Origin: Eubacteriales bacterium
GTDB lineage: Bacteria; Bacillota; Clostridia; Lachnospirales; Lachnospiraceae
Length of the DNA: 64,000 nt
Direction of reading: 5' to 3'
NCBI GenBank assembly: GCA_030533405.1
Contig: JAUNJF010000004.1
Span: 97,103 to 161,102, forward strand
Within the stretch, counting starts at the first letter, position 1; the number at the start of each line of letters is the position of its first letter. Under the pieces are notes generated by a model. The model was not told the DNA's origin and did no database searches. It saw only the letters and a list, made by a program, of their open reading frames with translations. The translations under genes and the position numbers were made by a program. Positions 3,412 to 54,852 of this stretch are shown piece after piece.

Positions 3412-3440
3412 TTCTTTTGGATATAGGAGTTAAGAAATCC

Positions 3441-32951: not shown

Positions 32952-32969
32952 TATATAGATGAGAGTCTA

Positions 32970-33006
32970 TCCCCTAAAGGCGAGATGCTTTTAGGGGATT
33001 TTTTTT
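32970..33006 (+). terminator. Intrinsic terminator
   Basis: ATCCCCTAAA (32970-32979) pairs with TTTAGGGGAT (32991-33000), followed by T6-G-T7. Confidence 0.93.
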
Positions 33007-33065
33007 GTTTTTTTGTGGAAATCTATAAATAATAGGTAGAAATTTGTCGATATATAGGAATATAG

Positions 33066-33094
33066 TTGACCTGAAAATCAAGAAAGAATATAAT
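33066..33094 (+). promoter_or_regulatory. Strong promoter of the pilus operon
   Basis: TTGACC (33066-33071), a 17-base spacer, and TATAAT (33089-33094), 45 bases before the giant pilin start. This is one of the two best sigma-A matches in the window. Confidence 0.8.
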
Positions 33095-33138
33095 TATAAT
33101 GAACTAGGAAAACATGGATGGAGTCCGAGGTGATATAG

Positions 33139-36100
33139 ATGAAATCAGTGGGAGAAATGATTTGTTTGCTTGGGAAAAGTTCTTACAAAAGAGCAAGAAA
33201 TCACAAAGGTTTTACATTGATTGAGATGGTCGTTGTTATGGCCATTTTAAGCATTTTATTAGGGTTGTCTGTAGTAGGAATGTTAGGCTGGCAGGATTGG
33301 GCAGATTTTAACCGACAAAATGAGTACGCACAGACGCTTTTTTTGGCTGCGCAAAGTCAGCTTGCTGAATATAGTGAGAGTGGACAGTTGGGCCAGTTGG
33401 AACAGATGATGAAGGATGAGCATGAGGATTATTCGAATGTCATTGATCCAACAACATTGCGTACAGAAAATGGATTATATGAATTGGATAAGGTGTGGTA
33501 TCAAAGCGGTGGTGACAGTGCATATCAGACCTCTATTTGTAGCGTTTCCGCGCAAGCAGGGGATTACAGCAAGTATATGCAGGGTCAAAAGACGGCTAGT
33601 GATACTGCGCCTATTTTATTCCAAATTGTATCAGCTTATGTATATGATACCAGTGTTTTAGATGCTGCGATTTGTTTGGAATTTACACCATCAGAAGGAC
33701 AGGTGTTTGCAGTTTGTTTTAGTGATAAAAATAGTTCTCTTGTATATCGCGCACCAGAAAAGGAAGGTGAGGTTGATATCACAGATCGAAGCGAGAATGT
33801 CCGTTATGATAACAAATGGGGATATTATGGTGTAGATACATTGACTGTTTCAAAGGGTGGAGAGAAGAAACAGCCAAAGCTTGTTGCCGTGCATTTAAAT
33901 GATGAGGATACGCTTAATTTGTCATTTAGAGTAACAGAGGTAGATCACGCAGAACGCGAGCTGAAGTATAACATTGTTGTGACAGATTATTACAAGGATT
34001 GGGCACAGGATGATAGTCCAGAGAAAAATGAGAAAATTCTGTCATTTAATTTAGACGGAAAATACTTGCATAATTATGAACACAGAAGCATGATTTCCTG
34101 TCCTGTGATTCGATATACTTATTCTGAAACAGGCGAGGAACAGAAAGAGGAATTAGGAAATTATGATATTTTAGCATGGATGGATGAAGATAATACGATT
34201 CGTATTGTTTTAGATGCGGCAGATATTCAGGCATCAAGCTATCTTTACAAAAAGTCATTATTAGGTGGTGTGACGAAACCTGCAAATAATGGAACGAAAA
34301 TTTCTGATATGGCATTCACCAAGACACTTAGTTTTCACAGATTTGGTGTTGATGCAGAGGAGATTTCCTGTGCAGTTCAGGCATTTGGAGACGACTATCG
34401 TTCTTCTATGGTAAAGGAATCTAATCAGGAACATGTTTATTTTGCAGAGCAGGCAACGAAAAAAGAAATTACATCAGATGGAACAAACCTGTTCAAGATG
34501 CAATATGCATTAAAAAATGCAAGACATTTGTACAATGTCAGATATATTGAGGATATTGAGAAGGATGTACAGTATACCTATGGTAAGACAGCATTATTAG
34601 CAGGAAAGACGGATATTCAAAATACATTTTCTATCAAGGAAGATATCGATTGGGGAACCTTTGTAGAGAACGGCAATTTGTATTTTACTAAGGTGACACC
34701 AAATTTAGATGAAGAAAATAGTGTTATTATGGGTGCGTTAAAACGACCAACTATAGTGCAAATAGAAAATGGTCTTCCTGGAACAAATGGAGCGGAAGAT
34801 GAGGACCCAGACATGGGTAATCAGTCACAGAAGTATGCAAGATATGCAACAAAGGCAGATTTCCCATCTATTCGTCAGCTTCGCTATACGGATGAGATGG
34901 AAGCGAAGCAGTTGCTAGGTGAGGATAAGACGATTTCAAATATTTCTATTTCTTTAGATACCAATAACGATTGTCTTGTTTATCAGACAGCAATAGATGA
35001 AATGAATGCAAAGGATGAGGCGAACCGGCAAAAGGTTGAAAAACCGGTTGGTCTGTTTGTGATGAATTTAGGTAAGATTGAGTCGTTGCGTTTGGACAAG
35101 GTTACTGTAGAAGGTCAGAGTAAGGTTGGTGCTTTTTGTGGTACGAATGTTGGAACCTTGACAAAATTGGAAACATGGAACACCAATCGTGAGAGTGTGA
35201 TTACAGGTGAAAGTCATGTCGGAGGTATTTTGGGATATCAGGCAGGCGTATTGGATGATAGTAAGATTACAGCAGATACAGATCTTTCTGTCGAATTAAA
35301 GGAATTAAAGAATCACGCAAAAGTTCAGGGAACCTGGTATGTTGGTGGTATTTTAGGAAAAATTACGATTCCAGAGGAAAAGAATAATATTAAAATGTCA
35401 GTGCTGATTGAGGAATGTGATAACTATGGTGCGCTAGAACCAGTGAATAGCGTTTCTAGAGAGGGCGATATCGAACATAAAGAACTTGAACCAAGATATA
35501 TTGGTGGTATTGTTGGATTATCAGAGAATTTACAGCAGAAGAAGCAATATGTTCCGATTGAAAATGCTACGTCCAAGTTAATTATTCAGGAATGTAACAG
35601 TTCGCCATCTTATGCTACAGAAGATGTACAAGACATTTTGAAACATGATGCTGCAGCAAAAGAGAAACTCCAGAAGTATTTAAATGGTGTTTATGTTGGA
35701 GGTATTGTTGGTTTTAACTGTTATGGAGAAATCGTAGAATGTAGCACTAAGCCAGAACAGGGAAAAGTGGGTTATGTATTTGGTAATCAATATGTTGGAG
35801 GTGTTGTTGGTTTTAATCAGGGACCAGCACTTGGTGTTGAGAGTGGCATTCTTCGAAAACAGGGTGAAAATGATGCAACCGTTGTAGGTAATCAGTATGT
35901 CGGTGGTATTGTTGGTTGTAGCTCAGATGTAAATAAGAAGCAGTTGCTACAGGTAGATGCTGCATTGAAGGCAAAATATGCAAAGAATGAATCGTTAAAG
36001 GAGAGTGAATGGACACAGGTAATTGGACCAGTGATAGAGCCAGAAAAAGAACGTAACATGCATGTTGTAGTGAAAAACTGGGTTAACAAAGGTGTTGTAT

Positions 36101-39100
36101 ATGCAGCAGATTGTTATGCAGGTGGTATCACAGGATATAATGCAGGATGGGTATATCAGTGTGATAGTGAAGTAGATAATAGCGAGACTTCAGGTTATTT
36201 CCAGGAAATCTACGCAGGAGATTATGCAGGTGGTATTGCAGGATATAATAATGGCATTATTGGAAATACGGACCGCGATCAAGATGGAAAATGTAAGACA
36301 AAAGCAGATGGAACACCTGTTACAGGTGAGGAAAAGAAGGCAATTTGTAATGTCACAGGAAAGAACTATATTGGTGGTATCGTTGGATATAACGATGCAG
36401 ATGCGATTATAGAAGATTATGCGCTTTCAGGTGGACATATTCTTGGTGAAGAAAATGATAGTACATTTGTCGGCGGATTTGCTGGCTTAAATGCATCTAT
36501 TCTGCTATTACAGGATGAAAATGGTAAGGCAAGAACCATTTCAGCAACGCCGAATGAAGTAAGCGGACAGTACTGTGTAGGTGGAAGTATTGGTGGTAAT
36601 ATCATTAATACAAATGGATATAATAAAAAGGACAATTCGGGTGATGCTCCTGTTGATGAACCAACAACACAGGCGACAACACAGAAACCACCAGTAGTGA
36701 ATCCGCCAGCAGGAGAGTTGAATCCGGATATTAATGTGAATGTCAAAGATAAAAAACATTATAATGGTAATTATTACGGTGATATTGATTTTTCAATAAA
36801 AAATTCAACCAATGTAAACTGGAAGAGTTGGAGTTTAGAGATTACTTTGCCGGAAACTCCAATCTTTAGTGATAATTTTTGGAATTGCAAAAAAACAATT
36901 CAAGACAATAAGATGATTATAATACCACTTGATTGGAATAAGAATATAATGGCTGGAAATACGCAAAACGGTAGTGGTTGTTATATTGGCTTTTCTTCAG
37001 AAGCTGCCTTAAATCAGTTTATTGAAAATATAAAACGCGCAAAGATTATCTACGAAGCGGATTTGGGTAGACAAGGTGCAGCTCCAGATGGTATGACAGG
37101 TGATTGCAGTGTACAATTGAAACGAACTGGTATATATGGTACAAACTCAAATGAAAATCCTACAAGTCAGTATTTATTGACTTGCAAGAATAACACTGCA
37201 ACAGCAATTACAGACTGGCGTGTGGAGATTGAGATTCCAGATGGAATAGAGCTTGAATTGTTAGAGGCATGGGGTGATGGTGCCTATGAAAAGGTAAACA
37301 AAAAAATAATGATAACCCCTCCGACAAATGGGAAATCAATTCCGGCAAAGGGTTCTATTGAATTTGGTTTTAAAGTTCGTACACGTAATGTTTTGGAATG
37401 CTTTAAATTCTCGAATACAGTGGTAAGTATATATACAAATGGTATTTTGAGTGGTGTACAGGATGGTAGAAATACAGATCAGGTCGATAAGCCATACAAA
37501 ATAGAACTCGTGCAAAGCAATGTATGGCAGGAGAATGGAAAATATAGAACGCAATATGAGTATAAAGTCATTAATGAAACAGATGAGCCGATTGAGGGAT
37601 GGGGAATTGAAATTGAAACAGGAAATCGTGACTTTGAAGTTGTTAGTGGTTGGGTGAATCATGAAAAACAAGACGGTCTTTTGATTATTCTTCCGCATTT
37701 TGTTTATGACAGTATTATTCCAGCGCATGGTAGTGTAAGTGGTAATTTCCAAATTGTGAGTAAAAACAAAGCGGATATTGTAAATCTTGCAGGTGGTAAA
37801 ACAAATACTTTTGAATATTATCACGGAAATCAGGGAAATACTGAGCCGGGTGATGATGGAATTCTTCGGATCAAAACCAATTTCCAGACAAATAACTTCC
37901 TAGGTCAGGTAAAAGGAAATGTTTGTGTTGGTGGATTTATTGGATATAACTTATTTGTTGATAGTAATGATCAGGATTTTGTGTGGAATTTGACTGATAC
38001 AATGCATACAAAATTGCAGGAAACAACAACGTTAGAAACATGTAATACAGTATTAAACGCATTGAAGGAAAGCGATGCATATGGTGTTGGTGAGTATAGT
38101 GAAAGCAAGGTACAGTTCTATGTAGCGGGAAATCAGAGCAAGAGGGCAAGTAGTCTCGCGCAGGTAACAGGTGCTATTCATATTGGTGGTGTAGTTGGAT
38201 ATGACGATTGTGGAACCGAGTTGTACTTTGATAATATTATCAACGGAACGCCTGTGACGGCAACTGCTGCAATTGAAAATGCAGATGAACAGGATGAATA
38301 CGCAGATATCATTTTTGAAAATGAGAAACCAATTAGGAAAGAGCGTATGACCTATCAGGATGAAGTGTATACATATTCTTATACTGGTGGAATTATAGGA
38401 CGAGCAAATCGTAACGTTACAATCACACGTTGTAAGAACGCTGGAACTGCTGTGATTAAGACAAAGGGTACTTACATTGGCGGTCTTTGTGAAGTAAATG
38501 ATGGTTTGATTAAATTGTGTGAATGTGCAGACATTGGCGCAAGCACCAAGGACTATATTGGTTCGATTTGTGGATTGAATAAATATCAGGTTGAGGATTG
38601 TAAGCTTGTCGGTAAGACCATGCATGGTAGAAATTATTTAGGCGGAATTGCTTCGGAGAATTTTGGTACTATTCAGGGTGTTACGATTGAAAATACGAAG
38701 CTTGTTGTAAGTGGAAAGGATTCGCAATCTGTTGCAGGAACATTGGCGGCATATAACGGTGGAAGAATAATTGTTTGCTCTGATTTGAAAAATGTGATGA
38801 TTGACGCAAGGGGATCATATGTTGGTACAGTTGCAGGTATCAACGAGGGCACCGTTACAAAACGAGATGAATTGGAAAATGTGATGGTTACGGGATCGGT
38901 TAAAGGTAATCAATGTGTCGGTGGTGTTATTGGTGAAAATAGAAGTATAGAAAAGATATCACATTTTGTAAATCAAGCGACGGTGCATGCGGATTATGGA
39001 GAAGCAGGTGGTATTGTAGGACGTAATACATTAACTGGCGAGATTGCAGATTGTATCAATGAAGCAACTGTAACAGCAGAAAAAGATGGTAACGCTGGTG

Positions 39101-42100
39101 GTATTACTGCAGAGAATATCGGAACCATTTCAAATTGTATCGATTATGGTGTGATTGCTGCGCCAAAGGGTGTTTGCGGTGGTATTGCATCAGACAATGC
39201 AGAAAATGCAACGATTGTTGATTGTATGGTTACTGCAAAAAATGGAGCAAGATTACAGTTTTCATCTCTTCGTGTAACTGGTGGCGTTGTTGCATCGAAC
39301 GAAGGAACCATCGAAAGATGTATTGTGGAAAACGTGGATGTAACCAATTATAAGAGTAGCAAGGTAAGTGATATTGGTGCACTTGTTGGTGTGAATGAGC
39401 AAAGTGGTAATATTGTACTGCCTGCCGGTGAGGTTGCGAAAAACTGTACAGCAGTGACATACTCTGATGGAAGTAATGTTGGTGGTTTGGTTGGAAGCAA
39501 CAAAGGTGTGCTTCGTGGTCAGGTTGATAATAGTAAGAGACCAGCAACACAGGTGAAAAACAGTATTGCCAAATTACAAAAGGATTATGCTACAGTTGCC
39601 AATATTGGTGGTGCAGTAGGAAGAAATAGTGGTATCGTAGAAAATATTTCTGTAGAAGAAGAATTACAGGGTAATATGGGCGCGAAGAATGTTGGTCTTG
39701 GTGGTGTTGTTGGTGCATCCTTGAAGGAGGATGGACCTGAGTTACAGGACACAGAGGTACGCGTATCCAATTGTGAATTTAATGGAAAGTTGTCTGGTAA
39801 TGGTTCTGCCGCAAAGGTATTAGCAATAGGTGGAATTGTTGGATTCAATGGTGCAGGTAGTAAGGTATCTGCATGTGCGATTGGAACCGAGAAAGAAACA
39901 CAGATTTTAGCTGGTGTGAATAAGGATGGAACGCTTTTATCTAACGGAAAAGACAGTTATGTATATATGGGTGGTATTGTCGGAGATAATTATGGAACGG
40001 TTTTATCTTGTGACAATAACAATGCGGTATATCGTAACAAGAAAGCAGTTGCAATCGTCGGAGCCAAGGGCAATATTGGTGGTATCATCGGTCAAAATGA
40101 AATCGGTGGACTTGTGGCAGGCGAAAGTGAAAGTAAAGTAACTGCAACGGGTAGTAACTGGAAGATTCGTGCTGTGGATTTCTTCAATGATCAGGGTGTA
40201 GGCGGTATCATCGGATATAGCCAAAGTGGAAAGAGCATAGAGTTTGTAAGAAATTACGCATATGTTGAACTGAACAAAGCAGGCGGAAATAATAATCAAA
40301 GTGCTGGTGGTATCATTGGTCGTATTGAAAATCAGGAAACGCGTTATATGGAAATTCGCGACAGCATTAACTATGGAAAGGTTGTTGGTGCGAATCGTGT
40401 TGGCGGTTTTGTTGCGACAGTGAAGAACAAGGGTATAATGATTCTGCGCTGTGACAATTATGGAAATGTCACCTGTACAGGTGGTAACGCAGAAAGTAGC
40501 GTTACGTCTGGGTTTATTGCAACTGCTTACAATGTTCGAGGCGAAAATATTTATATGGATGAATGTAATAACTTTGGAAATATTACAGGAAATGGATATA
40601 CAGCTGGTTTCTTGGCATTTAATCAGGTTAATCCATCACCGCGTTACTTTACAGAATGTATCAATGTAGGATGCATTAATACGTCAAGACAGTCTGGTTT
40701 TGCACATGCTGGTATTACAACCGCAACGCAATCTTATTTGTTTGAGTGTCAGAATTATGGTGTAACCAATGATGAAAGTGTTTTTGCTGGATTGGCATAT
40801 GTACCGAATAATGGTTCGGTAGAGAAGATGACGAATTGTTTTGATGATGGAGGTTCCATCAGACCAATGGCAAAAACAAGTAATGCAAAGTTTTCATACT
40901 ATTTGGCACATGACAATGTGAGTGCAATAGATGATTATACAGGAAAAGGATCTGTGACATCATCCCAAACACTTTTTGCTGATACATATCAGATTAATAT
41001 GTTGAAGTTTGATTTGTTTGATGGATATATGGCGTATTCTGGTGATGTAAAAGGACTTAAGCACAATCCGGCAAATATGGAAAAGAAAAATGATTTTGCG
41101 GATTATACGGGTTCTACAATCAGAAAGCCAATATATGAAGAAGTGCATGAAAAGGTTAAACAGGCGATGATAGAGATGAACCGAGTAGAAACGCCTATTT
41201 GGGCAAGAAGAATAGATACGCCTAAAAATCCTGCATTAACAGATTCGCAGAAATGTTTCATGATGACATGGGGTAAGGTACCGAATGCATATTGTTATGA
41301 GGTGAAATATGAGGTTGTTGATGCAAATGGAAAGACGATTTATGAAAAGAAGAATACTTATGTAAAGGGCAGAGAAGTATTTGAATTTCAGATGCAAGAG
41401 GAATGGGAAGGATGTACAGTAAATGCTTATGTAAGAGCGATTGCTGCGAATGATTTAATTGGAGATGATGGCAAAATTCATCTGTTCACATGGGGAGAAA
41501 GATCTTCTGACTGGGTTATGGCATCAAAGAAGGTTAAAAAATTGTTGCCAAATCCAAAGGTACATTTGGAAATGGTAGATGTTGGACAGGTTGTTGCCAT
41601 TTTGGATAACCAGGAAGACTATCGCGATTACGAAGATTGTCAGATTGTAACTGAATTGATTCATGATAATAAGGTTGCAAATCGTTTTGTGATTGATCCA
41701 AAAACTGGATACTCTGATCAGGTGCAGACCTTGTCTGAGACATTTGTGAATAATACATTCTTAACAGCACAGGCAAAACCAACAGACGAACAAAGTAGTA
41801 TAGACAAATATGCAGAATCGGTAACAAGTGTCATTGAAACAACGATTTTCAATCGTAATGTATTGAACGGAACCAGCAACATTTTAGGTACACAGTTCAA
41901 TGGATTTATTGGCACGATGCCAGAAGATTTGCAATATAAGATTCGATTTAAGGCAAGTTCATACAATCAATTTGTTGCAACAGACATTGAGGCATATGAT
42001 GCTAAAGTTGGAGCCGATGTTGTATATGTGCATGAGGATAGTAGTCATGTGACAAAAAACGAAAGTTTTGCAATATTAACTGGATTACCAGATGATTTGG

Positions 42101-44739
42101 TGAAGCAGCAGACGATAACGGTTCGTGCATATCCTTGGGTGACCATGGCAAATCAGGTACATTACATGCATGAGGTTGGAGAAGCTGGCAGTGTGGATGA
42201 TTTGCATAGCATGGTGGATCGAAATATGTACCAGATCAGCGGCAATTACTGTGAAAAGACAGAGCAGAGCATTTGGACTGCAGATGGCAGTTTAAAACCA
42301 GGATATATCATTTGTAAGACACAAAAAGGTCGTTATCAGGTGTTCTATAATGTGTTGTTAGCGAATACAAGAAATGGCAATTGTCAGGTGCAACAGCGTG
42401 TATATCGTTATGATGCGGAGACTTCGAAGTTTGTATATGATACTTCTGGTATTGCACAAAGGCCAGAGCCTGTATTGGCAGATACGATGGATATTCAAGA
42501 CCATACTTATATCTTTAGTTGGGATAAGGAATTCCAAAATGCTTCTGCTTATGAAAATGCTGAATACGCAGTGGATCTTGTTGGAATCACAGCAAAGGAT
42601 GAAGAGATACCACTGTTTACAACAAGTCAGATGGTGACAATGTCACAGTTAAAGAGCAACAATATGCAGTATGCAATTGAGGATACGCAAGGCAATTGGA
42701 AATACAGGAAAATGCGTGTTCGTATTACAAGAAAGGGTAGCGAACAGAACGGATATACAGACGTTTTACCAAACTATACTGAGAAAGAATATGACACAAA
42801 ATTACCGTTGCCACAGATGGAAATGCCAGCAGTTTCGTTGGTACGCGACGGTGCGCAGATGAATCGTCATAGCACATTACATGATATTTCATGGACCGGC
42901 ATTTTGAAATCGCAGGATGAATATAAGGATTTAGCGGGTTATTTGATTACCGTAAAACCGGAAGATGAGAATAAACAGGCAGATACCAAGTACTTCTACG
43001 TGAAGCTTAAGGATGTTGCAGTATCTCTTCCAAATGGTGTATACGATATCACTAATACCTATGATGATACGGATGCAAATGGCGAAGTGAAAGCAGTGAT
43101 TGATTTTGCGGGATTGACATGCGATGAGAATGTATTGATTTCCGTAAAGGCAATCGCAACAGGTCTTGAAGATGCAACGTATACAGATGGTCCAGAAGGT
43201 GTACCATTAACCTATATGGTGGAGCATAGACTAGAGGTACCTGATGTGAGTGGCCTTGTGGTAACCAATGTGGCAAGTCGTCAGGCAGATGAAAAATCAT
43301 TAGAGAGTGTGCAGGAGGCAGTTGTGCCGGCATTCCTCAATAATGGATTACGTTTTAAACTTGATAATCGTGCAGGTGAGAAGCTACAGCTTGCGGTTGC
43401 AATCGTTGAAAAACCAGAGGAAGCAGGTATGCATCAGGTTGCGAAAAATGGAGATTGTGTCAATGAACAAAGCGGATATTGGAATACATCTGCAACAGAC
43501 AACAAAGTTGTAACATTGATTGGCAAGACTGCAACAAGTGGTAATGAAACAAATAAAAATGGTGAGTTCACATATCAGTTTGCAACAGATGGACAGATAA
43601 ACTGGGCTGATTATGCAGGAAAATACTTAAAGGTTACAATTCGTGCAACTGCAGAGAATGCAATTAGTTCTGATTGGACTGATGAGGATTCTGAAGCGGG
43701 AGCAACAGTGGATTATAAGTACATTCGAATTCCGACTGTGCAGCTAGAGGATGTCACAGTTAAGGAAGAAGAGGTAATGCAATATTATCAGAATGCGGAA
43801 CAGACCTGGACAATGGAGCAGGGAGCATCTGCTGAATACAGTGCAGTCTTTAAAACATTGACCTTTGATACACAGAAGTATGCAGATTGTTATAAAGTGG
43901 CCGTGATTGGTGATTTGTCAAAGCAGGGTATTCCTGCGGCATGGATTTATTTGCAAAAACAGGAAAATGGTAGCGGATATGATGTATTTGCGACGGCAGA
44001 GGCGTCACCTGAAGAGGATAAGGATGAAAACAAACAAATCCCAGCTTGTAAGGTAGATGAGACCGCTGTTTATGTAGGTGATATATTGCCAGATGCAAAG
44101 AACTTGGTATTGCCAATCGGTGTTCCAAACTTAGTGGAAGATATGCAGATTATTAAACAGAATGAAGAAGCGTTAGCAGATATTCCATATATGATTTCGC
44201 TTTCGCAGGATGGAAAATTGGTATCGTTGGTTATGCCAGATATGAAAAAAATCAGTGTGGCTGGTAAGGCGTTGAAAGATTTGAAAAAAGCATATGATGT
44301 AACTGCATATGTAAATATCTGTGCATCTTCATTACCAAATGCTTTGCAGGAGGTAAGATATGCGGATTCTGCTACATTAAAGTGGAGCCAGGATGGAAAA
44401 ACAGAAAAAGAAACAAAACCATCTGAAAAAAAAGCACCAGAGATTGCTGGGCCATTCCAGTTAGCAACTGTGGCAGATGGTGATGGAGTTGCTTATCGTT
44501 TGGATGTGCAGTCGGGTGACCTGATTGCAAAGGTAATGGTAAGAGATGATAAGCAAAAGTTGTTAGGAACTTACATGTTACCATTGTCTACAGAGAAGAT
44601 GGATGGAGTGACAAAGTACTATTTTGTGATAGCTGATACTTATTTTGGTAAGGAGATTGATACGAAGATTTGTTTCGCGACATGCAAAGATGGTGTAATT
44701 AGCGATTGGACAGAGGAACAATCGTTGACGGTGGAGTAA
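33139..44739 (+). CDS. Giant modular type IV pilin-adhesin with GLUG repeats and CBM2-like modules
   Basis: 3,866 residues. A 24-residue leader ends in HKG before FTLIEMVVVMAILSILLG, a canonical prepilin peptidase site with Glu at +5 and a hydrophobic helix. After a beta-rich region (about 45-640) come about thirty GLUG-like motifs such as VGGIVGYN, in two blocks (about 650-1160 and 1578-2555). Between them lie a Thr/Pro linker (about 1175-1194) and three CBM2-like beta modules (about 1198-1312, 1319-1420, 1452-1554) with NxW/GW and late-Trp patterns. The remainder (about 2670-3866) is beta-rich and possibly fibronectin III-like. GAGGTGAT precedes ATG 33139. The frame is unbroken through 11.6 kb, so it is under selection. 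Probably a tip or shaft minor pilin carrying an adhesin; the ligand is inferred from the CBM-like parts. Confidence 0.85.
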   Translation: MKSVGEMICLLGKSSYKRARNHKGFTLIEMVVVMAILSILLGLSVVGMLGWQDWADFNRQNEYAQTLFLAAQSQLAEYSESGQLGQLEQMMKDEHEDYSNVIDPTTLRTENGLYELDKVWYQSGGDSAYQTSICSVSAQAGDYSKYMQGQKTASDTAPILFQIVSAYVYDTSVLDAAICLEFTPSEGQVFAVCFSDKNSSLVYRAPEKEGEVDITDRSENVRYDNKWGYYGVDTLTVSKGGEKKQPKLVAVHLNDEDTLNLSFRVTEVDHAERELKYNIVVTDYYKDWAQDDSPEKNEKILSFNLDGKYLHNYEHRSMISCPVIRYTYSETGEEQKEELGNYDILAWMDEDNTIRIVLDAADIQASSYLYKKSLLGGVTKPANNGTKISDMAFTKTLSFHRFGVDAEEISCAVQAFGDDYRSSMVKESNQEHVYFAEQATKKEITSDGTNLFKMQYALKNARHLYNVRYIEDIEKDVQYTYGKTALLAGKTDIQNTFSIKEDIDWGTFVENGNLYFTKVTPNLDEENSVIMGALKRPTIVQIENGLPGTNGAEDEDPDMGNQSQKYARYATKADFPSIRQLRYTDEMEAKQLLGEDKTISNISISLDTNNDCLVYQTAIDEMNAKDEANRQKVEKPVGLFVMNLGKIESLRLDKVTVEGQSKVGAFCGTNVGTLTKLETWNTNRESVITGESHVGGILGYQAGVLDDSKITADTDLSVELKELKNHAKVQGTWYVGGILGKITIPEEKNNIKMSVLIEECDNYGALEPVNSVSREGDIEHKELEPRYIGGIVGLSENLQQKKQYVPIENATSKLIIQECNSSPSYATEDVQDILKHDAAAKEKLQKYLNGVYVGGIVGFNCYGEIVECSTKPEQGKVGYVFGNQYVGGVVGFNQGPALGVESGILRKQGENDATVVGNQYVGGIVGCSSDVNKKQLLQVDAALKAKYAKNESLKESEWTQVIGPVIEPEKERNMHVVVKNWVNKGVVYAADCYAGGITGYNAGWVYQCDSEVDNSETSGYFQEIYAGDYAGGIAGYNNGIIGNTDRDQDGKCKTKADGTPVTGEEKKAICNVTGKNYIGGIVGYNDADAIIEDYALSGGHILGEENDSTFVGGFAGLNASILLLQDENGKARTISATPNEVSGQYCVGGSIGGNIINTNGYNKKDNSGDAPVDEPTTQATTQKPPVVNPPAGELNPDINVNVKDKKHYNGNYYGDIDFSIKNSTNVNWKSWSLEITLPETPIFSDNFWNCKKTIQDNKMIIIPLDWNKNIMAGNTQNGSGCYIGFSSEAALNQFIENIKRAKIIYEADLGRQGAAPDGMTGDCSVQLKRTGIYGTNSNENPTSQYLLTCKNNTATAITDWRVEIEIPDGIELELLEAWGDGAYEKVNKKIMITPPTNGKSIPAKGSIEFGFKVRTRNVLECFKFSNTVVSIYTNGILSGVQDGRNTDQVDKPYKIELVQSNVWQENGKYRTQYEYKVINETDEPIEGWGIEIETGNRDFEVVSGWVNHEKQDGLLIILPHFVYDSIIPAHGSVSGNFQIVSKNKADIVNLAGGKTNTFEYYHGNQGNTEPGDDGILRIKTNFQTNNFLGQVKGNVCVGGFIGYNLFVDSNDQDFVWNLTDTMHTKLQETTTLETCNTVLNALKESDAYGVGEYSESKVQFYVAGNQSKRASSLAQVTGAIHIGGVVGYDDCGTELYFDNIINGTPVTATAAIENADEQDEYADIIFENEKPIRKERMTYQDEVYTYSYTGGIIGRANRNVTITRCKNAGTAVIKTKGTYIGGLCEVNDGLIKLCECADIGASTKDYIGSICGLNKYQVEDCKLVGKTMHGRNYLGGIASENFGTIQGVTIENTKLVVSGKDSQSVAGTLAAYNGGRIIVCSDLKNVMIDARGSYVGTVAGINEGTVTKRDELENVMVTGSVKGNQCVGGVIGENRSIEKISHFVNQATVHADYGEAGGIVGRNTLTGEIADCINEATVTAEKDGNAGGITAENIGTISNCIDYGVIAAPKGVCGGIASDNAENATIVDCMVTAKNGARLQFSSLRVTGGVVASNEGTIERCIVENVDVTNYKSSKVSDIGALVGVNEQSGNIVLPAGEVAKNCTAVTYSDGSNVGGLVGSNKGVLRGQVDNSKRPATQVKNSIAKLQKDYATVANIGGAVGRNSGIVENISVEEELQGNMGAKNVGLGGVVGASLKEDGPELQDTEVRVSNCEFNGKLSGNGSAAKVLAIGGIVGFNGAGSKVSACAIGTEKETQILAGVNKDGTLLSNGKDSYVYMGGIVGDNYGTVLSCDNNNAVYRNKKAVAIVGAKGNIGGIIGQNEIGGLVAGESESKVTATGSNWKIRAVDFFNDQGVGGIIGYSQSGKSIEFVRNYAYVELNKAGGNNNQSAGGIIGRIENQETRYMEIRDSINYGKVVGANRVGGFVATVKNKGIMILRCDNYGNVTCTGGNAESSVTSGFIATAYNVRGENIYMDECNNFGNITGNGYTAGFLAFNQVNPSPRYFTECINVGCINTSRQSGFAHAGITTATQSYLFECQNYGVTNDESVFAGLAYVPNNGSVEKMTNCFDDGGSIRPMAKTSNAKFSYYLAHDNVSAIDDYTGKGSVTSSQTLFADTYQINMLKFDLFDGYMAYSGDVKGLKHNPANMEKKNDFADYTGSTIRKPIYEEVHEKVKQAMIEMNRVETPIWARRIDTPKNPALTDSQKCFMMTWGKVPNAYCYEVKYEVVDANGKTIYEKKNTYVKGREVFEFQMQEEWEGCTVNAYVRAIAANDLIGDDGKIHLFTWGERSSDWVMASKKVKKLLPNPKVHLEMVDVGQVVAILDNQEDYRDYEDCQIVTELIHDNKVANRFVIDPKTGYSDQVQTLSETFVNNTFLTAQAKPTDEQSSIDKYAESVTSVIETTIFNRNVLNGTSNILGTQFNGFIGTMPEDLQYKIRFKASSYNQFVATDIEAYDAKVGADVVYVHEDSSHVTKNESFAILTGLPDDLVKQQTITVRAYPWVTMANQVHYMHEVGEAGSVDDLHSMVDRNMYQISGNYCEKTEQSIWTADGSLKPGYIICKTQKGRYQVFYNVLLANTRNGNCQVQQRVYRYDAETSKFVYDTSGIAQRPEPVLADTMDIQDHTYIFSWDKEFQNASAYENAEYAVDLVGITAKDEEIPLFTTSQMVTMSQLKSNNMQYAIEDTQGNWKYRKMRVRITRKGSEQNGYTDVLPNYTEKEYDTKLPLPQMEMPAVSLVRDGAQMNRHSTLHDISWTGILKSQDEYKDLAGYLITVKPEDENKQADTKYFYVKLKDVAVSLPNGVYDITNTYDDTDANGEVKAVIDFAGLTCDENVLISVKAIATGLEDATYTDGPEGVPLTYMVEHRLEVPDVSGLVVTNVASRQADEKSLESVQEAVVPAFLNNGLRFKLDNRAGEKLQLAVAIVEKPEEAGMHQVAKNGDCVNEQSGYWNTSATDNKVVTLIGKTATSGNETNKNGEFTYQFATDGQINWADYAGKYLKVTIRATAENAISSDWTDEDSEAGATVDYKYIRIPTVQLEDVTVKEEEVMQYYQNAEQTWTMEQGASAEYSAVFKTLTFDTQKYADCYKVAVIGDLSKQGIPAAWIYLQKQENGSGYDVFATAEASPEEDKDENKQIPACKVDETAVYVGDILPDAKNLVLPIGVPNLVEDMQIIKQNEEALADIPYMISLSQDGKLVSLVMPDMKKISVAGKALKDLKKAYDVTAYVNICASSLPNALQEVRYADSATLKWSQDGKTEKETKPSEKKAPEIAGPFQLATVADGDGVAYRLDVQSGDLIAKVMVRDDKQKLLGTYMLPLSTEKMDGVTKYYFVIADTYFGKEIDTKICFATCKDGVISDWTEEQSLTVE

Positions 44740-44808: not shown

Positions 44809-45513
44809 GTGAAAAGACGATTAAAAATGCGAAAATTGAATAATAGTGGTTCTGCTATGATTATGGCAATGGTAGTAGGCGTCATCATTTTGGCATTTTG
44901 TCTTTCCATGCTGATGGTCTCCTATAGTGTTATGATGAATGCAGCAAATCAAAGGATTTCATTGCAATGTAAAGAATATGCAAAATCTGTCAGTAAAGAG
45001 GTGGAAAGAAGCATATTAAATGGGGACAAAAATGATGAAATTTGGATGTTTTTGCGGTATAATATAAGACAGGAATCATGGCCATATTATAAAGCGGGAG
45101 AGGCTGATCATGAGAAGAATCAGGCATACCGTTATTTTGAACTGACGTGTGATGGGGAGGAGACTCCAAATGGTAATATCAAAGCCAAAGTCATCCTGTA
45201 TTGGGAGCCTGAGGAAGGTCTGGTGGAGGATGGTGATACCGTTGCCACATTGCATGCGCAGGTGATTGCGGGTATTGGTGATGCCATTGATACGACAAAG
45301 GTGGAGAATCTTCAGGATACTTCGTATACTTTGGGAACGGTTTATGAACTTACAATCCGTAAGGAAGACCCATCAGAGAGTGATTTGGATCCTTCGGAAG
45401 ACGGAGGAAGTGAGCCAGAGTTAGAGGTTTGTCCAGATGAGGAGTATAATTCATTTGGAAATAGCATTCAAGTTGATGAGATTTGGAAATGGGATTTGAA
45501 AGAGCGGGTATAA
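44809..45513 (+). CDS. PilX-like minor pilin
   Basis: 234 residues. A short basic leader ends NNSG before SAMIMAMVVGVIILAFCLSM, a hydrophobic helix like those of PilX/GspK-type minor pilins. The usual Glu at +5 is replaced by Met, as in GspK-like tip pseudopilins. The rest is a soluble domain with an acidic Ser/Glu/Asp tail (DPSESDLDPSEDGGSEPE). The GTG start at 44809 is preceded by TAGGAG. It follows the giant pilin by 69 bp and likely joins the same initiation complex. Confidence 0.75.
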   Translation: MKRRLKMRKLNNSGSAMIMAMVVGVIILAFCLSMLMVSYSVMMNAANQRISLQCKEYAKSVSKEVERSILNGDKNDEIWMFLRYNIRQESWPYYKAGEADHEKNQAYRYFELTCDGEETPNGNIKAKVILYWEPEEGLVEDGDTVATLHAQVIAGIGDAIDTTKVENLQDTSYTLGTVYELTIRKEDPSESDLDPSEDGGSEPELEVCPDEEYNSFGNSIQVDEIWKWDLKERV

Positions 45514-45515
45514 GC

Positions 45516-45884
45516 ATGAGAAAGAATAACAAAAGAAAAAAACTGAACAATTTGGGTACAACAATGCTTGAGGTTGTAATTGGTTTTGCAGTGCTTATGG
45601 TGTTGGATGCAGGATTTCTTAAGCTGATTGCAGTGGGAAATACTATGTATTACAGAAGTGTGGATATGATGAAGGAAGCAGAGCATTTTAAGGAGCTGTT
45701 GTATCAGGATCCAGCGCAGTTAGAGGCAAAGGATTTGGGATGCACAGTGCATTTGGAATCTGTGAAAGAATCTGGTGACCCGACAGGAATTACACTTCGC
45801 ATGTCAACGAAAGTAACACAATACAGAGAAAAGGAATCAACTAGTGAGGATGCGATAGAAGTTTATCGATTTCAGGAAAAATAG
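45516..45884 (+). CDS. PilV/GspI-like minor pilin
   Basis: 122 residues. The leader KRKKLNNLG is followed by TTMLEVVIGFAVLMVLDAG, with Glu at +5. The small C-terminal domain is of the size of GspI/PilV pseudopilins. The ATG at 45516 lies two bases after the stop of the preceding minor pilin, so translation is probably coupled; the frame could start 11 residues earlier by overlap. A candidate component of the priming tip complex. Confidence 0.75.
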   Translation: MRKNNKRKKLNNLGTTMLEVVIGFAVLMVLDAGFLKLIAVGNTMYYRSVDMMKEAEHFKELLYQDPAQLEAKDLGCTVHLESVKESGDPTGITLRMSTKVTQYREKESTSEDAIEVYRFQEK

Positions 45885-45923
45885 TATTTTGGTTTGAATG
45901 GTTAGATAAATGTGGAGGGGAAT

Positions 45924-46562
45924 ATGCCGAGGTCAAGTCATAATAAAAGAAAAAAATTGCATAATCAAGGCATGACTTTGGTCGAGATGATTGTTACCTT
46001 CGCATTGTTAAGTATATTTATGGTATGTGCAACCATGATTATATCAGCTACAGTGCAGACCTATCATCGCTCCAAAGGACTTTCGTATGGTATGCAGGTG
46101 GGCGACATGCTAGTTAGCAGAATTACAAAGGAACTAGAGAGTGCACAGTGTGATGTGACAAAAATGGAAAAGGTCGCAGGAGAAGAGGTAGAAGATGTTG
46201 CTATGTTGGTAGAGAAGAATGTGATTCAGTTTACCAACAAACAAGGAAGCCACGTATCATTTGAATTGGTGCAGCATGACGGCAGACAGTATCTGGCAGA
46301 GAAGTACTATGAGGTTCGTGATGAGGGTGGAAATGTTGCAAGTAAAGAGATTTTATGGACCTTTGATGATAAAGCATATATGGGGTATGAAGTGAAAAAT
46401 ATGGAATTCATCATAAAGGATGCAGACCATCCAAGTATTGTTTGTGTAGCGTTAACATTAGACAATGGAACTTATGGTCAGTATGAAATCAATGAGTATA
46501 TTGAGTGTTATCAGTTTGATAATAGTGAGAAGGAAAGTTATATCAAATATTATCCAGATTAG
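45924..46562 (+). CDS. PilW/GspJ-like minor pilin
   Basis: 212 residues. The leader KKLHNQG precedes MTLVEMIVTFALLSIFMVC, with Glu at +5. A larger beta-rich domain follows, as in PilW/GspJ minor pilins. GGAGGGG lies upstream of ATG 45924. The set of three minor pilins plus one giant pilin corresponds in number to the four-pseudopilin tip complex of type II and type IV systems (I, J, K and H). Confidence 0.78.
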   Translation: MPRSSHNKRKKLHNQGMTLVEMIVTFALLSIFMVCATMIISATVQTYHRSKGLSYGMQVGDMLVSRITKELESAQCDVTKMEKVAGEEVEDVAMLVEKNVIQFTNKQGSHVSFELVQHDGRQYLAEKYYEVRDEGGNVASKEILWTFDDKAYMGYEVKNMEFIIKDADHPSIVCVALTLDNGTYGQYEINEYIECYQFDNSEKESYIKYYPD

Positions 46563-46580: not shown

Positions 46581-47405
46581 ATGAGTAAGATTTTACAAGC
46601 ACAGTCGACATATTATGTTTTGGCGGCGTTAATTCTGATTTTCGTATTTTTGATTGGAGCGACATTTTATTCGTATCTGAATGAAGTAATAATTCGATTG
46701 CCGAAAAAAGAGGATTTAACACACGGAAGAAGTAAATGTCCACATTGCGGACATGCATTTGCAATGAAGGAAGCATTGCCGATTTTTTCTCATTTGCGTT
46801 ATAAGGGAAAATGCATTTATTGTTTTGAACCGTTGCCAAAGCGAAAATTGGTGATTGAAATATTGGGTGGTTGTCTGGCAGTTTTGGTTGTATGCCATTA
46901 TCGAATCAGTTTAGAAGCATTACTAATGGTGTTGCTCTATGGTGTACTGACTGTCATTTCATTTATTGATGCGGATACACAGGAGATTCCGCCAGTCCTA
47001 AATGCCATTATTTTAGGCCTTGGTGTGATTCGATTGTTGTTGTTTCGACTAAGCATTGTTTCCTTTTTGGAGTCAGTGATTGGGTTCTTTTGCATTAGCC
47101 TATTGCTATATGTGATTGTAATCATTGTCCCAGATGGATTTGGTGGTGGAGACATTAAGATGATGGCTGCTGCAGGATTTTTCCTGGGCTGGAAGGCCAA
47201 CGTGTTTGCGTTTTTTATTGGATTGGTAATGGGTGGTGCTTATGGGGTGTACCTATTACTTCGAAAAAAGAAGGATAAAAATGAGCATTTTGCTTTTGGC
47301 CCATTTTTAAGTATTGGAATTGCGATTTCTGCATATGCAGAGATTGGTAATATAGTAATGAATCAATATTTAGAACCATTTCGCAAGTTCTTTGAGTACA
47401 TGTGA
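46581..47405 (+). CDS. pilD: Prepilin peptidase (A24 family)
   Basis: 274-residue polytopic membrane aspartic protease that cuts prepilin leaders after Gly and N-methylates the new end. The N-terminal DiS-P-Dis domain has two Cys pairs, CPHC and CIYC, and the substrate-binding SYLNEVIIRLP. The catalytic Asp pair sits in FIDADTQEIP and FGGGDIKMM. It is needed to process all five pilin-like proteins of this locus. RBS GAGGGG precedes ATG 46581. Confidence 0.95.
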   Translation: MSKILQAQSTYYVLAALILIFVFLIGATFYSYLNEVIIRLPKKEDLTHGRSKCPHCGHAFAMKEALPIFSHLRYKGKCIYCFEPLPKRKLVIEILGGCLAVLVVCHYRISLEALLMVLLYGVLTVISFIDADTQEIPPVLNAIILGLGVIRLLLFRLSIVSFLESVIGFFCISLLLYVIVIIVPDGFGGGDIKMMAAAGFFLGWKANVFAFFIGLVMGGAYGVYLLLRKKKDKNEHFAFGPFLSIGIAISAYAEIGNIVMNQYLEPFRKFFEYM

Positions 47406-47430: not shown

Positions 47431-48630
47431 GTGGTACAATACAAATATAAGGCAAAAGATTCTACTGGAAAAATCGTATCTGGTACCATTTCGGCGAATG
47501 ATGAAGTGGATTTACACGAGAGATTGAAGGCTGGCAATCTATATTTGATTCAGGCAAAGGAAAAGGTAGAAAAGAGAAATACAAAGCGATTAAAATCAAA
47601 TGTCATATCTGAATTTTCCAGAAATATAGGAAAATTGGTCGGTGCAGGTGTTTCGCTGGTAAAAGCACTTCGAATTATATCAGAGGATGAGTCTATTAAT
47701 CCAGAAGAGCGAGAAGTGTACAGTCGAGTGTTAAAACTGGTTCGTTCCGGTATGGCACTTTCTGAGGCGTTGTTAGAGCAAGGAGATGCATTTCCACCAC
47801 TTTTTATCAATATGATTAAAAGTGCAGAAGCAAGTGGTAATATGGATCAGATTGCTATGCAGATGGCATCGTATTATGACAAAGAATACCGTTTGAATGG
47901 TAAAGTAAAAAGTTCCATGACATATCCTAAGATTTTGAGTGTCATGATTATTTTGGTTGTGGCTATTATTATGGGATTTGTTATGCCGCAGTTTGACAGT
48001 TTATTTGCATCTATGCCAGAGTTGCCAGTATCTACAGAAATTTTGTTGGCAATTAGTGCATTTGTGAAGACAAGATGGTATGTGTTAATTGGCGTTGCAT
48101 TTGTTGGATATATTGCATTTGAATTGATTTGCTCCATTCCGAAGGTGCGATACTTAAGAGATAAAATGTTGATTAAGATGCCAAAGATTGGTGGCTTGAT
48201 GAAGATTATTTATACAGCTCGATTTGCAAGAACGTTATCGAGTTTGTATTCTGCAGGTATTTCGATTATCAATTGCTTGCAAATTGCGAAAAACACCATT
48301 GGTAATGCATATATTGAACAGCAATTTGATAGTGTTATTTCCGAGATTCGCGCAGGCGGTAATCTGAGCGAAGCGATTGATAAGGTGGATGGATTTACCA
48401 AGAAACTGTCATCTTCTGTTATGGTCGGTGAGGAGACTGGTGCATTGGATACGATGTTAGTTTCCATTGCAGACCAGATGGAGTTTGACTCGGAGATGGC
48501 GCTTAATAAATTGGTTTCTTACTTGGAACCAGTCATGATTGTAATCATGGCGATAATTGTTGGTTTTATTATGATTTCTGTGATTCAGCCGATTTATGGC
48601 TCATATCAGCAGATTTCAACTTCTTACTAA
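47431..48630 (+). CDS. pilC: Type IV pilus inner-membrane platform protein PilC
   Basis: 399-residue platform protein with two T2SSF domains. Typical motifs: YKAKDSTGKIVSGTI at the start, FSRNIGKLVGAGVSLVKALRI, FARTLSSLYSAGISIINCL for the second repeat, GEETGALDTML, and LEPVMIVIMAIIVGFIMISV near the end. It couples PilB and PilT rotation to pilin insertion or removal. The GTG start follows GGAGGAG. Confidence 0.95.
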   Translation: MVQYKYKAKDSTGKIVSGTISANDEVDLHERLKAGNLYLIQAKEKVEKRNTKRLKSNVISEFSRNIGKLVGAGVSLVKALRIISEDESINPEEREVYSRVLKLVRSGMALSEALLEQGDAFPPLFINMIKSAEASGNMDQIAMQMASYYDKEYRLNGKVKSSMTYPKILSVMIILVVAIIMGFVMPQFDSLFASMPELPVSTEILLAISAFVKTRWYVLIGVAFVGYIAFELICSIPKVRYLRDKMLIKMPKIGGLMKIIYTARFARTLSSLYSAGISIINCLQIAKNTIGNAYIEQQFDSVISEIRAGGNLSEAIDKVDGFTKKLSSSVMVGEETGALDTMLVSIADQMEFDSEMALNKLVSYLEPVMIVIMAIIVGFIMISVIQPIYGSYQQISTSY

Positions 48631-48650: not shown

Positions 48651-50102
48651 ATGAGTACGGTTATATATTTAGCAAATCAGCATGTGCAGGCAGTCACTGG
48701 TACTCCAGGACAGAAGAAAATTTCGGTAAAGCAATGTTATAGTGCAATCGCCCCGGAAGGCAGCTTGATTAATGGTATGGTTATGGATCCAGAAGCCTTT
48801 ATTGAATTTTTGAAGGTATTTTGGGCGGAGAATCAGTTGTCAAAGAAAGACGTTACACTGGTTATTAACAGTACAAAATTCATAGGAAAAACAATTGAGA
48901 TGCCGGCGCTTTCTGATAAGAAAACGTTGGAATATATTGAGCGAGAATTTGCGGATGTAAAAAAGGATGACGACATTGTTTATGGGTGGATTCCACTTGG
49001 TTCGACAGATCAGAAAATGAAGCGCTACTATGCAGAAGCTATTATACCAGAATTTATTCAAGAGTATGTTGCGATGTTTGAGGAAGCGGGGATTAAGCTT
49101 AAAAATATCTATTCTGGTGAAAGTAGTATTATCACGCTGACAGATCGTACCATTGGCAATTTCTATAAAACATTTATTTTGGAGATTGCAGATGATACAT
49201 CCCTTTCGTTACTTTTGTGGGTAAATGGAAGCTTTAGTTATTTTAATGCAGTACGAAGTTTTTATGAACAGGGCACGGAAGAATATGCACAGGATGTTGC
49301 AAGGTCTATTAGTCAGATTCAGCAATTTATGCAGGCGCAGCAGATTGAAGAACCGCTAGAACGTATTGTATTGGCAGGTATGAAAGCTGAGGATGTTCGG
49401 TTATATCAACTTTCTCTGGCTGAACGAGGCATGGATATAGAAATAGAAATGTTTGAATCGGATTCTATTTCCAATGATGCGAAAGAAGCAGGTCACTATT
49501 TGTATGCAGCAAGTGGATTGTATTTGAATAATAAGTTCCATAATTATCTGGAGCTTTGTAAAAAGAAGAAGAGCAAATCTTCTGTGATGGAAAAGAATCG
49601 TACAGGGATTATCATTATAGGAATTTGTTTGATTATAATGCTTGTCGGATTAACGGTTTCTATGGTGATTAAGATAAATAAAAAGAGGCAGCTGACTGCA
49701 GTGTTGGATTATAATGATAATCCGGTAACGATGATGGAGGTTGCGGAATATGATATGGCAGTGGAACGAAGCAATTTTTTGAATGCACAGATGCGTGCCA
49801 TTCAGGATATTGATGATAATATTGTCAGTTATCCTGTATGTGATAATGGTATTTTGAAGGTACTTGATCAATGTGCAGGGAATAATGCAGTTGTTGTTTT
49901 CCAATCCTTTGATGCAGATGCTGGTGTGGTTCGTGTGATTGCGACTTCGGATACGGTTGACCATATCAATGCGTTCATTAAGCAGTTGAATCAGCAGGAG
50001 ATTTTCAATGAAATTGATTATACAGGATATTCCTATGACGAAGGTCGTGATTTATGGGATATTCATGTGAGTTGTACTTTGGCAGAAGCAGCGGGAAGGT
50101 AG
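48651..50102 (+). CDS. pilM: PilM-PilN fusion protein
   Basis: 483 residues. The N-terminal about 310 residues are an actin-like PilM domain (VTLVINSTKFIGKTIEMPAL; late IVLAGMKAEDVRLYQL), although the phosphate loops are poorly conserved. A basic stretch (KKKKSK) and one TM (about 324-346, GIIIIGICLIIMLVGLTVSM) lead to a PilN-like extracytoplasmic domain with the alpha/beta pattern NAVVVFQSFDADAGVVRVIA. In most systems PilM and PilN are separate proteins joined by the PilN tail; here they are one chain. No separate pilN gene exists. The junction to pilO is 10 bp. Confidence 0.82.
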   Translation: MSTVIYLANQHVQAVTGTPGQKKISVKQCYSAIAPEGSLINGMVMDPEAFIEFLKVFWAENQLSKKDVTLVINSTKFIGKTIEMPALSDKKTLEYIEREFADVKKDDDIVYGWIPLGSTDQKMKRYYAEAIIPEFIQEYVAMFEEAGIKLKNIYSGESSIITLTDRTIGNFYKTFILEIADDTSLSLLLWVNGSFSYFNAVRSFYEQGTEEYAQDVARSISQIQQFMQAQQIEEPLERIVLAGMKAEDVRLYQLSLAERGMDIEIEMFESDSISNDAKEAGHYLYAASGLYLNNKFHNYLELCKKKKSKSSVMEKNRTGIIIIGICLIIMLVGLTVSMVIKINKKRQLTAVLDYNDNPVTMMEVAEYDMAVERSNFLNAQMRAIQDIDDNIVSYPVCDNGILKVLDQCAGNNAVVVFQSFDADAGVVRVIATSDTVDHINAFIKQLNQQEIFNEIDYTGYSYDEGRDLWDIHVSCTLAEAAGR

Positions 50103-52545: not shown

Positions 52546-52947
52546 ACTGGAAAGGCTTCTAAAGAGCCTTCTGGTAACCAATCCACGGACGAACTGAATA
52601 ATGAATTAACAGATGATCAGGTTGCAGCTTTGTTCGCACAGACCCAGCAGATGTTTGAGGAGACGCCGAAGATAGAAATTGAGCAAGCAATTCCGATGGA
52701 ATTAGAAGTCGATGTGGTGGAAGAGCGAGATGCAGTGGATATGAGCGTTACAGAAGAGATTTCGATGGAAAATAATGGTATCGGATCTTCAGAAGAAGAT
52801 TTTGATAAACCAGAACAAGCTGAGATACCTGTGATTGAAGTAGCTGGAGACATACCAGTTGTTGAGGTGGTTAGCGAAAGACCGCGAGAAACGATAATTG
52901 CGACAAATGTTGTGAGAAAACCGAATGACGAAGGAGGTAGGGAACTT
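52546..52947 (+). other. 134-codon open linker in frame between PilB and PilT
   Basis: After the PilB UGA (52543-52545) the same frame stays open for 134 codons up to the PilT start. The translation looks protein-like: helical LTDDQVAALFAQTQQMFEE, then a very acidic Val/Ile/Pro-rich region typical of linkers. The first usual start codon is TTG at 52630, with no clear RBS. A stem AAGGCT (52552-52557) with AGCCTT (52565-52570) begins six bases after the stop. It may be an N-terminal extension of PilT started unusually, a readthrough-encoded fusion linker, or a decayed fusion. Confidence 0.6.
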
Positions 52948-54756: not shown

Positions 54757-54852
54757 AAAAAACAATAGTGGGAAAAGGCTGGTCGGTGCATGACCGATAG
54801 AATGTGTTGGGGAGATAATCAAATAGAGAATCATTTCAAAGCGAGGGTTTAC

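Follow-up and report, generated by a model that had tools for sequence, protein, structure and literature searches.

The 64-kb window analyzed here (the whole stretch of DNA under study, positions 97,103 to 161,102 of contig JAUNJF010000004.1, assembly GCA_030533405.1) comes from a Lachnospiraceae genome of 3.15 Mb in 94 contigs (95.8% complete), and contains a type IV pilus operon on the forward strand. The first gene of this operon, at 33139..44739, encodes a prepilin-like protein of 3,866 residues and 424 kDa (421 kDa from F25), i.e., about twenty times the usual size of a pilus subunit. An earlier interpretation of this DNA, made without database searches (hereafter, the “sequence-only reading”), had described an unbroken 11.6-kb frame with a prepilin leader, and both features were borne out. 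All 3,866 codons are open, against 119–392 stops in each of the five other frames of the stretch. The leader (residues 1–24; 33139..33210) ends in KG and reads ...RNHKG followed by FTLIEMVVVMAILSILLGLSVVG, with a predicted cleavage site between the two. The prepilin peptidase motif G/FxxxE (slash, cleavage site), the hydrophobic helix, and Glu5 are all present, and the leader scored above the cut-offs of both Pfam N_methyl (34.5 bits, cut-off 21.2) and TIGR02532 (29.8 bits, cut-off 16.3). A profile of the N-terminal region also matched solved type IV pilins by sequence, the best being Streptococcus sanguinis PilE1 (E 6e-8).

Upstream on the same strand, a terminator-like hairpin with a T run (32969..33009; 14-pair stem) ends a trigger-factor-like gene; two terminator-like sites were found within 32800–33300, the second inside the giant gene, for a shuffle mean of 0.1. 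A promoter-like TTGACC-17-TATAAT (33066..33094, forward strand) lies 44 nt 5′ of the start codon and agrees with the consensus at 11 of 12 bases, although this is a consensus match only, with four sites found for a shuffle mean of 1.9. A ribosome-binding-like GAGGTGAT (33127..33134, forward strand), read directly from the sequence, precedes the ATG at 33139. Since all three elements stand 5′ of this ATG, the giant gene probably starts its own transcription unit. A scan of the window against Rfam at gathering thresholds returned zero matches.

Behind the leader, the protein opens with a pilin module (residues 25–233; 33211..33837), composed of a long N-terminal helix and a small head ending in GYYGVD. 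It is followed by a family-specific beta-rich region (residues ~234–564; 33838..34830) bearing the signature RHLYNVRY, of which R-H-L-N-R is invariant in an alignment of 46 sequences (alignment A5). A GLUG-repeat region comes next in two halves, the first at residues ~565–1157 (34831..36609; Pfam Glug 29.4 bits, cut-off 20.5, six stretches) and the second at residues ~1578–2600 (37870..40938; 41.4 bits, six stretches), on either side of an inserted module (residues ~1158–1577; 36610..37869) made of a Thr/Pro linker and three CBM2-like domains. With the insert excluded, the 1,621 residues of the repeat region hold 29 GGxxG-type motifs, whereas 1,000 shuffles averaged 1.1 and never exceeded 6. 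The protein ends in a string of Ig/FnIII-like beta-sandwich domains (residues ~2690–3866; 41206..44736), as judged from predicted structure and Foldseek. Peptidase_M26_N had no match in the giant and was found in 1 of 14 members of one set. The sequence-only reading had passed over the repeats and the CBM2-like insert, as well as the membership in a wider family described below.

An AlphaFold2 model of residues 25–1157, built with 45 homologues (pLDDT 82, pTM 0.73), displayed a helix at model residues 3–57, a small mixed head, the beta-rich region, and, beginning near model residue 540, many short strands. The GLUG-repeat region is probably a beta-solenoid, a fold for which Foldseek gave no PDB match at E ≤ 0.001. 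For a model of residues 2640–3839 (pLDDT 74.9, pTM 0.46), Foldseek returned 270 PDB matches at E ≤ 0.001, and the 50 listed were mainly multi-domain Ig/FnIII or complement/alpha-2-macroglobulin proteins. These C-terminal matches had low TM-scores, which would follow from uncertainty in how the domains are placed relative to one another, and the C-terminal profile had no match to PDB sequences at E ≤ 1.

The boundary between the pilin and the rest of the protein is marked by natural short forms. In a Lachnospiraceae metagenome-assembled genome from water-deer colon (locus L158), a 213-residue form aligns with giant residues 18–233 (39% identity over 221 columns) and ends exactly at GYYGVD (giant residue 233), where the giant reads on. 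A second 213-residue form (locus L078, genome G195) is 34% identical over 174 columns. Both are encoded 3′ of PilB and immediately 5′ of K-, I-, and J-like pilins, the same minor pilin set that follows the giant (see below). The K-like gene starts 18 nt past the short-form stop in L158 and overlaps the short form in L078 (first start codon used), which leaves no space for a passenger at either locus. Given these short forms in the operon slot, the giant can be read as a pilin of ~200 residues carrying a passenger of ~3,630 residues, and the pilin moiety is, as far as sequence comparison goes, self-sufficient and separable from that passenger. A module grafted on a pilin moiety able to stand alone is what characterizes modular pilins (PMC8179133), and the L158 and L078 forms provide the stand-alone state.

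The sequence-only reading had also placed the giant at the head of a full pilus operon, and this operon was confirmed on the forward strand (Pil names are labels assigned in this analysis). Three small pilin-like open reading frames (ORFs) come first, two of them with no Pfam match: a K-like minor pilin without Glu5 (44809..45513; G/SAMIM; NCBIfam GspK E 0.061, far under the cut-off), then, labeled by position, an I-like minor pilin (45483..45884; Glu5 present, G/TTMLE; no family match) and a J-like minor pilin (45912..46562; Glu5 present, G/MTLVE; Pfam N_methyl 25.4 bits). The K-like and I-like genes overlap by 31 bases (45483–45513, first start codon used). Next are the prepilin peptidase PilD (46581..47405; A24_N_bact, Peptidase_A24), the platform protein PilC/T2SSF (47431..48630; T2SSF), a PilM-like protein (48651..50102; PilM_2 E 6e-4, under the Pfam cut-off), a PilN/O-like protein (50113..50856; T2SSM E 0.002, under the Pfam cut-off), and the extension ATPase PilB with an MshEN domain (50860..52545; T2SSE 418 bits, MshEN 39 bits). 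The operon closes with a second ATPase (52630..53991; T2SSE 169 bits), which we take from its position and length to be the retraction ATPase PilT, and a likely major pilin of 157 residues (54153..54626; N_methyl 35.7 bits; best partial NCBIfam match GspG, under the cut-off). The giant is hence encoded with PilB, PilC, and PilD, and this arrangement recurs beside its relatives.

We evaluated the genes that follow large frames of this type across 59 loci with a complete large frame and ≥1.6 kb downstream, de-duplicated by downstream DNA. A pilin-like ORF was detected within 450 nt downstream in 52 of these loci, and this first pilin never carried Glu/Asp at mature position 5 (0 of 52), compared to 40 of 51 for the second downstream pilin and 43 of 45 for the third. 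The seven loci with no pilin-like ORF within 450 nt were L040, L084, L095, L138, L151, L167, and L170; in L084, the next gene is a second, tandem giant, and in L151, a pilin-like ORF lies at 583 nt. Subunit K has no Glu5, which is why it stands at the top of the HIJK complex (PMC9934059). Based on gene order and the Glu5 pattern, we assign the three small pilins to K-I-J and the giant to the slot left over (H). The giant would then sit at the pilus tip alongside the minor pilins, the Glu5-less follower being the putative mark of a tip subunit. This tip placement with three minor pilins was already proposed in the sequence-only reading; it remains conjectural, strengthened by the lack of Glu/Asp5 in the first downstream pilin of 52 out of 52 loci.

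Relatives of the giant were searched in samples of genomes, on which all family counts rest. Residues 1–632 matched 11 of 59 other genomes at E ≤ 1e-8, with the best frame in each spanning 2,276–3,188 residues, and residues 1–200 matched 34 of 298 genomes of the bacterial family (own genome included) at E ≤ 1e-6. The best frame exceeded 1,400 residues in 27 of these 34 genomes; the other seven frames (159–867 residues) included some ordinary pilins matched via the helix, one frame truncated at the edge of its contig, and one short form. At broader and narrower ranks, profile A1 matched 20 of 294 genomes at order level, 3 of 398 sampled across the phylum, and 9 of 26 within the genus (own genome included in each). 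Separately, a scan of named genomes yielded 67 loci related to the giant, of which 62 displayed the motif [GAS]x4[DE] followed by 14 uncharged residues and three more were cut by a contig end on their 5′ side. Among 41 motif-bearing loci with complete ends, 39 frames were longer than 1,500 residues and 23 longer than 2,500 (length from the motif), the two exceptions measuring 1,293 and 204 residues. Closed genomes are represented as well, with a complete frame of 3,105 residues in CE91-St56 and a frame of at least 3,803 residues in the Blautia parvula chromosome. Overall, frames of 2,000–4,200 residues recur across the giant-pilin family and one reaches 7,662, so the giant that the sequence-only reading had singled out for its size is not a lone case.

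The 7,662-residue frame (genome G201, L093–L094) is prepilin-headed, with 78 GG-type repeat motifs, and comes from a genome that encodes a second giant of 3,497 residues (L095). Genome G206 has two tandem same-strand giants of 3,222 and ~3,165–3,167 residues (L084, L085) with near-identical leaders. At four loci from ruminant Lachnospiraceae (L140 4448, L142 5183, L143 5685, and L145 5658), the ~1,900-residue family member is preceded upstream by another large frame with a prepilin head, which measures 1,124–1,551 residues and has 0–1 GG-repeat motif. Two family members, L167 (9842) and L170 (9395), have no prepilin motif, and neither locus had a match to 13 neighbor-gene queries (10 pilus and three flanking genes), so that leader and operon are missing together. 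L167 opens with a simple hydrophobic helix, suggestive of a new way of anchoring in the membrane.

The distribution of the giant can be compared with that of the retraction ATPase, as PilT and residues 1–200 were searched with identical settings, each against 298 genomes of the bacterial family. A PilT-like ATPase (E ≤ 1e-50) was detected in 189 of the 298 genomes, including 33 of the 34 matched by the giant. The 34th, G195, encodes the short form and PilB, with PilT absent at this threshold. Beyond the own genome, the 15 highest-ranking PilT matches (62–70% identity) were all in genomes positive for residues 1–200. The own genome itself has three PilT-like ATPases at the same threshold (contigs C14, C86, and C76) and one giant. 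On C76 (L042, 2733–17599), a by-eye reading identified a second type IV pilus-like cluster with PilB, PilT, PilC, a pilin, PilD, and PilM, as well as a 550-residue prepilin-headed frame followed by a 917-residue frame; it looks like an ordinary type IV pilus set. For the window PilB, PilC, PilM, and PilD, the best matches were to other genera and outranked the same-genus loci that were examined, with PilB identity of 70–76% in three other-genus loci vs 60–61% in two fully aligned same-genus loci. Because these best matches lie outside the genus, the pilus operon may have moved between lineages.

The inserted module sets the giant apart from most of its relatives. Residues 1158–1577 matched Pfam CBM_2 at 55.8 bits (cut-off 24) in three stretches behind the Thr/Pro-rich linker, and no similar stretch was found in any other of the 114 rows of the comparison, redundant ones included (blastp, E ≤ 0.01). 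Both insert flanks could be placed in 64 rows, 56 of which have ≤29 residues between them, i.e., an empty site, vs ~420 in the giant. Six of the remaining eight rows are explained by a right flank that starts later, and the other two are L142 and L111. In L111, a ~206-residue insert occupies the same site and matches CBM_2 at 15.5 bits (E 0.023), under the cut-off of 24. The larger gap of L142 (230) holds GG-repeat sequence and was not counted as a third insert at this site. In a quick N-terminal tree (SH-aLRT only, midpoint rooting), the window (94) fell beside L111 and eight insert-free rows (97), from which the insert site changed at least twice on that tree, whether by two gains or by one gain and a loss. 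The only other CBM2 match of the own genome (E ≤ 0.1) is carried by a lipoprotein-like cellulase of glycoside hydrolase family 5 (L171, 454–2022). The insert could let the pilus grip plant fiber.

Directly after the pilus operon, on the same strand, two paralogous genes (54790–56757 and 56849–58750) encode sugar-receptor-like proteins with a GGDEF domain. The two products are 52% identical to each other, and each combines GGDEF (110.6 and 110.1 bits) with Peripla_BP_3, a periplasmic-binding/LacI-type sugar-receptor domain. A distant full-length relative of these proteins was found at 1 of 110 loci (L111, 886–2706, upstream of its giant, 23–25% identity), the same locus that carries the other CBM2-like insert, and partial matches at L039 and L165. 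Since many of the 110 loci end before the equivalent position, the co-occurrence in L111 is a lead only. MshEN is a binder of cyclic di-GMP (c-di-GMP), and the GGDEF neighbors together with the MshEN domain of PilB suggest that c-di-GMP may control the pilus, with PilB as a possible point of input.

Taken together, we consider it reasonably probable that the giant is a modular minor pilin serving a dedicated type IV pilus as its tip adhesin, here aimed at plant polysaccharide. Specifically, PilD would cut the leader after G24, and the N-terminal helix, together with the pilin module of ~200 residues, would assemble with the three minor pilins into a complex that initiates and caps the filament, in which the giant would fill the fourth (H) slot. 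The passenger of ~3,630 residues (beta-rich region, GLUG solenoid-like arm, and Ig/FnIII-like string) would extend as a long arm off the tip, three CBM2-like domains in the side of this arm would bind plant polysaccharide, and PilT retraction would draw cell and fiber together. Several results weigh against this scenario. A Foldseek search of the N-terminal model against the PDB returned nothing at E ≤ 0.001, and no pilin was among the 50 matches listed for the whole model. The H/I/J/K labels rest on gene order and Glu5 rather than homology (GspK at E 0.061), and the I-like pilin of L158 likewise lacks Glu5. In addition, 156 of the 189 PilT-bearing genomes of the bacterial family have no match to the giant, so the pilus does not require it. 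As for the ligand, the binding face of CBM2 carries aromatic residues, which are only partly kept at the expected positions of the insert, and phmmer matched the insert to no PDB sequence at E ≤ 0.01.

These observations can be set against other explanations of the locus. The leader match could be fortuitous, on a repeat protein that is cytosolic or secreted in another way, or the frame could be an assembly fusion of two genes, the outcome that the sequence-only reading had named as fatal to its own proposal. Nothing was found in favor of either, and both are practically refuted: profile scores above cut-off in two libraries and the motif in 62 of 67 loci rule out a chance leader, and a fusion is rejected because independent genomes, including closed ones, carry the same type of frame. 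A more serious alternative is a pseudopilin-like surface protein, whose leader and helix would act as a cleavable membrane anchor and which would stay at the surface outside the filament, the machine lifting or exposing it transiently, in the manner of type II secretion. A mature size of 421 kDa indeed makes packing into the shaft implausible, and L167 and L170, with neither motif nor operon matches, indicate a passenger usable as a plain surface protein. However, the tight linkage to the K-I-J-like set and to PilT (33 of 34), as well as the likeness of the ~200-residue forms in the same slot to ordinary minor pilins, argue against this alternative, and we regard a surface-anchored protein as unlikely.

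A further question is whether the CBM2-like insert confers binding at all, or instead forms a beta-sandwich spacer in an adhesin that binds a protein or host glycan via its repeat arm or C-terminal domains. The homologues lack the insert, so the rest of the passenger must do their binding, and the partial loss of aromatics and the lack of a PDB sequence match noted above point in the same direction. On the other hand, the CBM_2 score is above cut-off and spread over three stretches, the one other CBM2 match of the genome sits on a cellulase, and a second CBM2-like insert, albeit under the cut-off, occupies the same site in L111. A mere spacer is thus somewhat doubtful, and plant polysaccharide remains our preferred target for the tip adhesin.

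With its leader, its ~200-residue short forms in the same slot, its operon context, and N_methyl, CBM_2, and Glug combined on one protein, all above cut-off, the giant belongs to the modular pilins, as the extreme variant that the sequence-only reading had recognized. ComZ of Thermus thermophilus, a DNA-binding protein of ~554 residues from a diderm host, has a ~380-residue solenoid inserted in the pilin sheet, whereas the giant, whose host family is monoderm, has ~3,630 residues after the pilin module, with GLUG, Ig/FnIII-like, and CBM2-like domains. ComZ has been described as a solenoid on a pilin (PMC6561018). Like PilB (vWA) and PilC (lectin) of S. sanguinis, the giant would carry an adhesive module on a small pilin in a monoderm type IV pilus, and these two are also thought to lie at the tip with a Glu5-less pilin (PMC8179133, PMC9934059). 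However, they measure 50.5 and 52.8 kDa with one or two extra modules, compared to 421 kDa and several modules here, and PilABC replace HIJK in S. sanguinis, whereas the I/J/K-like set is kept alongside the giant. The giant would also parallel PilC/PilY1 of diderms, a very large modular tip effector on a four-pilin HIJK complex (PMC8179133, PMC9934059, PMC10191384). PilY1, however, is a non-pilin with a C-terminal beta-propeller and is reported absent in monoderms (PMC9934059), and the PilC/PilY1 beta-propeller domain was not among the Pfam matches of the giant at E ≤ 1.

Links between type IV pilins and cellulose exist in gut Firmicutes, with CbpC of Ruminococcus albus and Pil3 of R. flavefaciens, the latter being cotton-bound and Avicel-induced (PMC3672088). 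Pil3 is an ordinary 14-kDa pilin, and the accessible sections of that paper note no carbohydrate-binding module on Pil3 or CbpC. Both halves of the repeat region score above the Glug cut-off, as in GLUG-repeat surface proteins (PF07581; N-terminal region of M26 IgA1 peptidase), but unlike in those proteins, the repeats of the giant ride on a pilin. No description of giant type IV pilins was found among the literature matches listed, with subscription journals and preprints outside coverage. A “large pilin” paper on C. perfringens (PMC6958937) was set aside, as it refers to a large locus and not a large protein, and no giant pilin was found in the accessible sections of a paper on Myxococcus Kil (PMC12075869). 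The most extreme multi-domain case named was a pilin of 860 residues with 12 repeats (PMC8179133). Giant pilins may have been missed because PilFind, a Gram-positive pilin finder, combined its criteria with a 350-residue length limit (PMC3244431), and because an InterPro survey covered known domains only (PMC8179133). Database entries for giant pilins are expected to exist under automatic names.

Subunits of 400–800 kDa raise the question of how the pilus machine handles them, and the 213-residue forms offer a natural control for the role of the passenger. The CBM2-like insert, in turn, provides a testable route from type IV pili to gut fiber attachment. At the level of the bacterial family, these proteins are a concrete candidate for a replacement of PilY1 in part of the Lachnospiraceae. 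Extending from this, we tentatively put forward, as a possibility short of an even chance, that tip pilins of 2,000–7,700 residues are the monoderm gut bacteria’s own answer to PilY1, i.e., an H-slot pilin fused to a solenoid-like arm. A preferred site in this arm would gain and lose carbohydrate-binding modules between lineages and so re-aim the pilus at new polysaccharides, while adjacent sugar-receptor/GGDEF proteins may set pilus extension via the MshEN domain of PilB.

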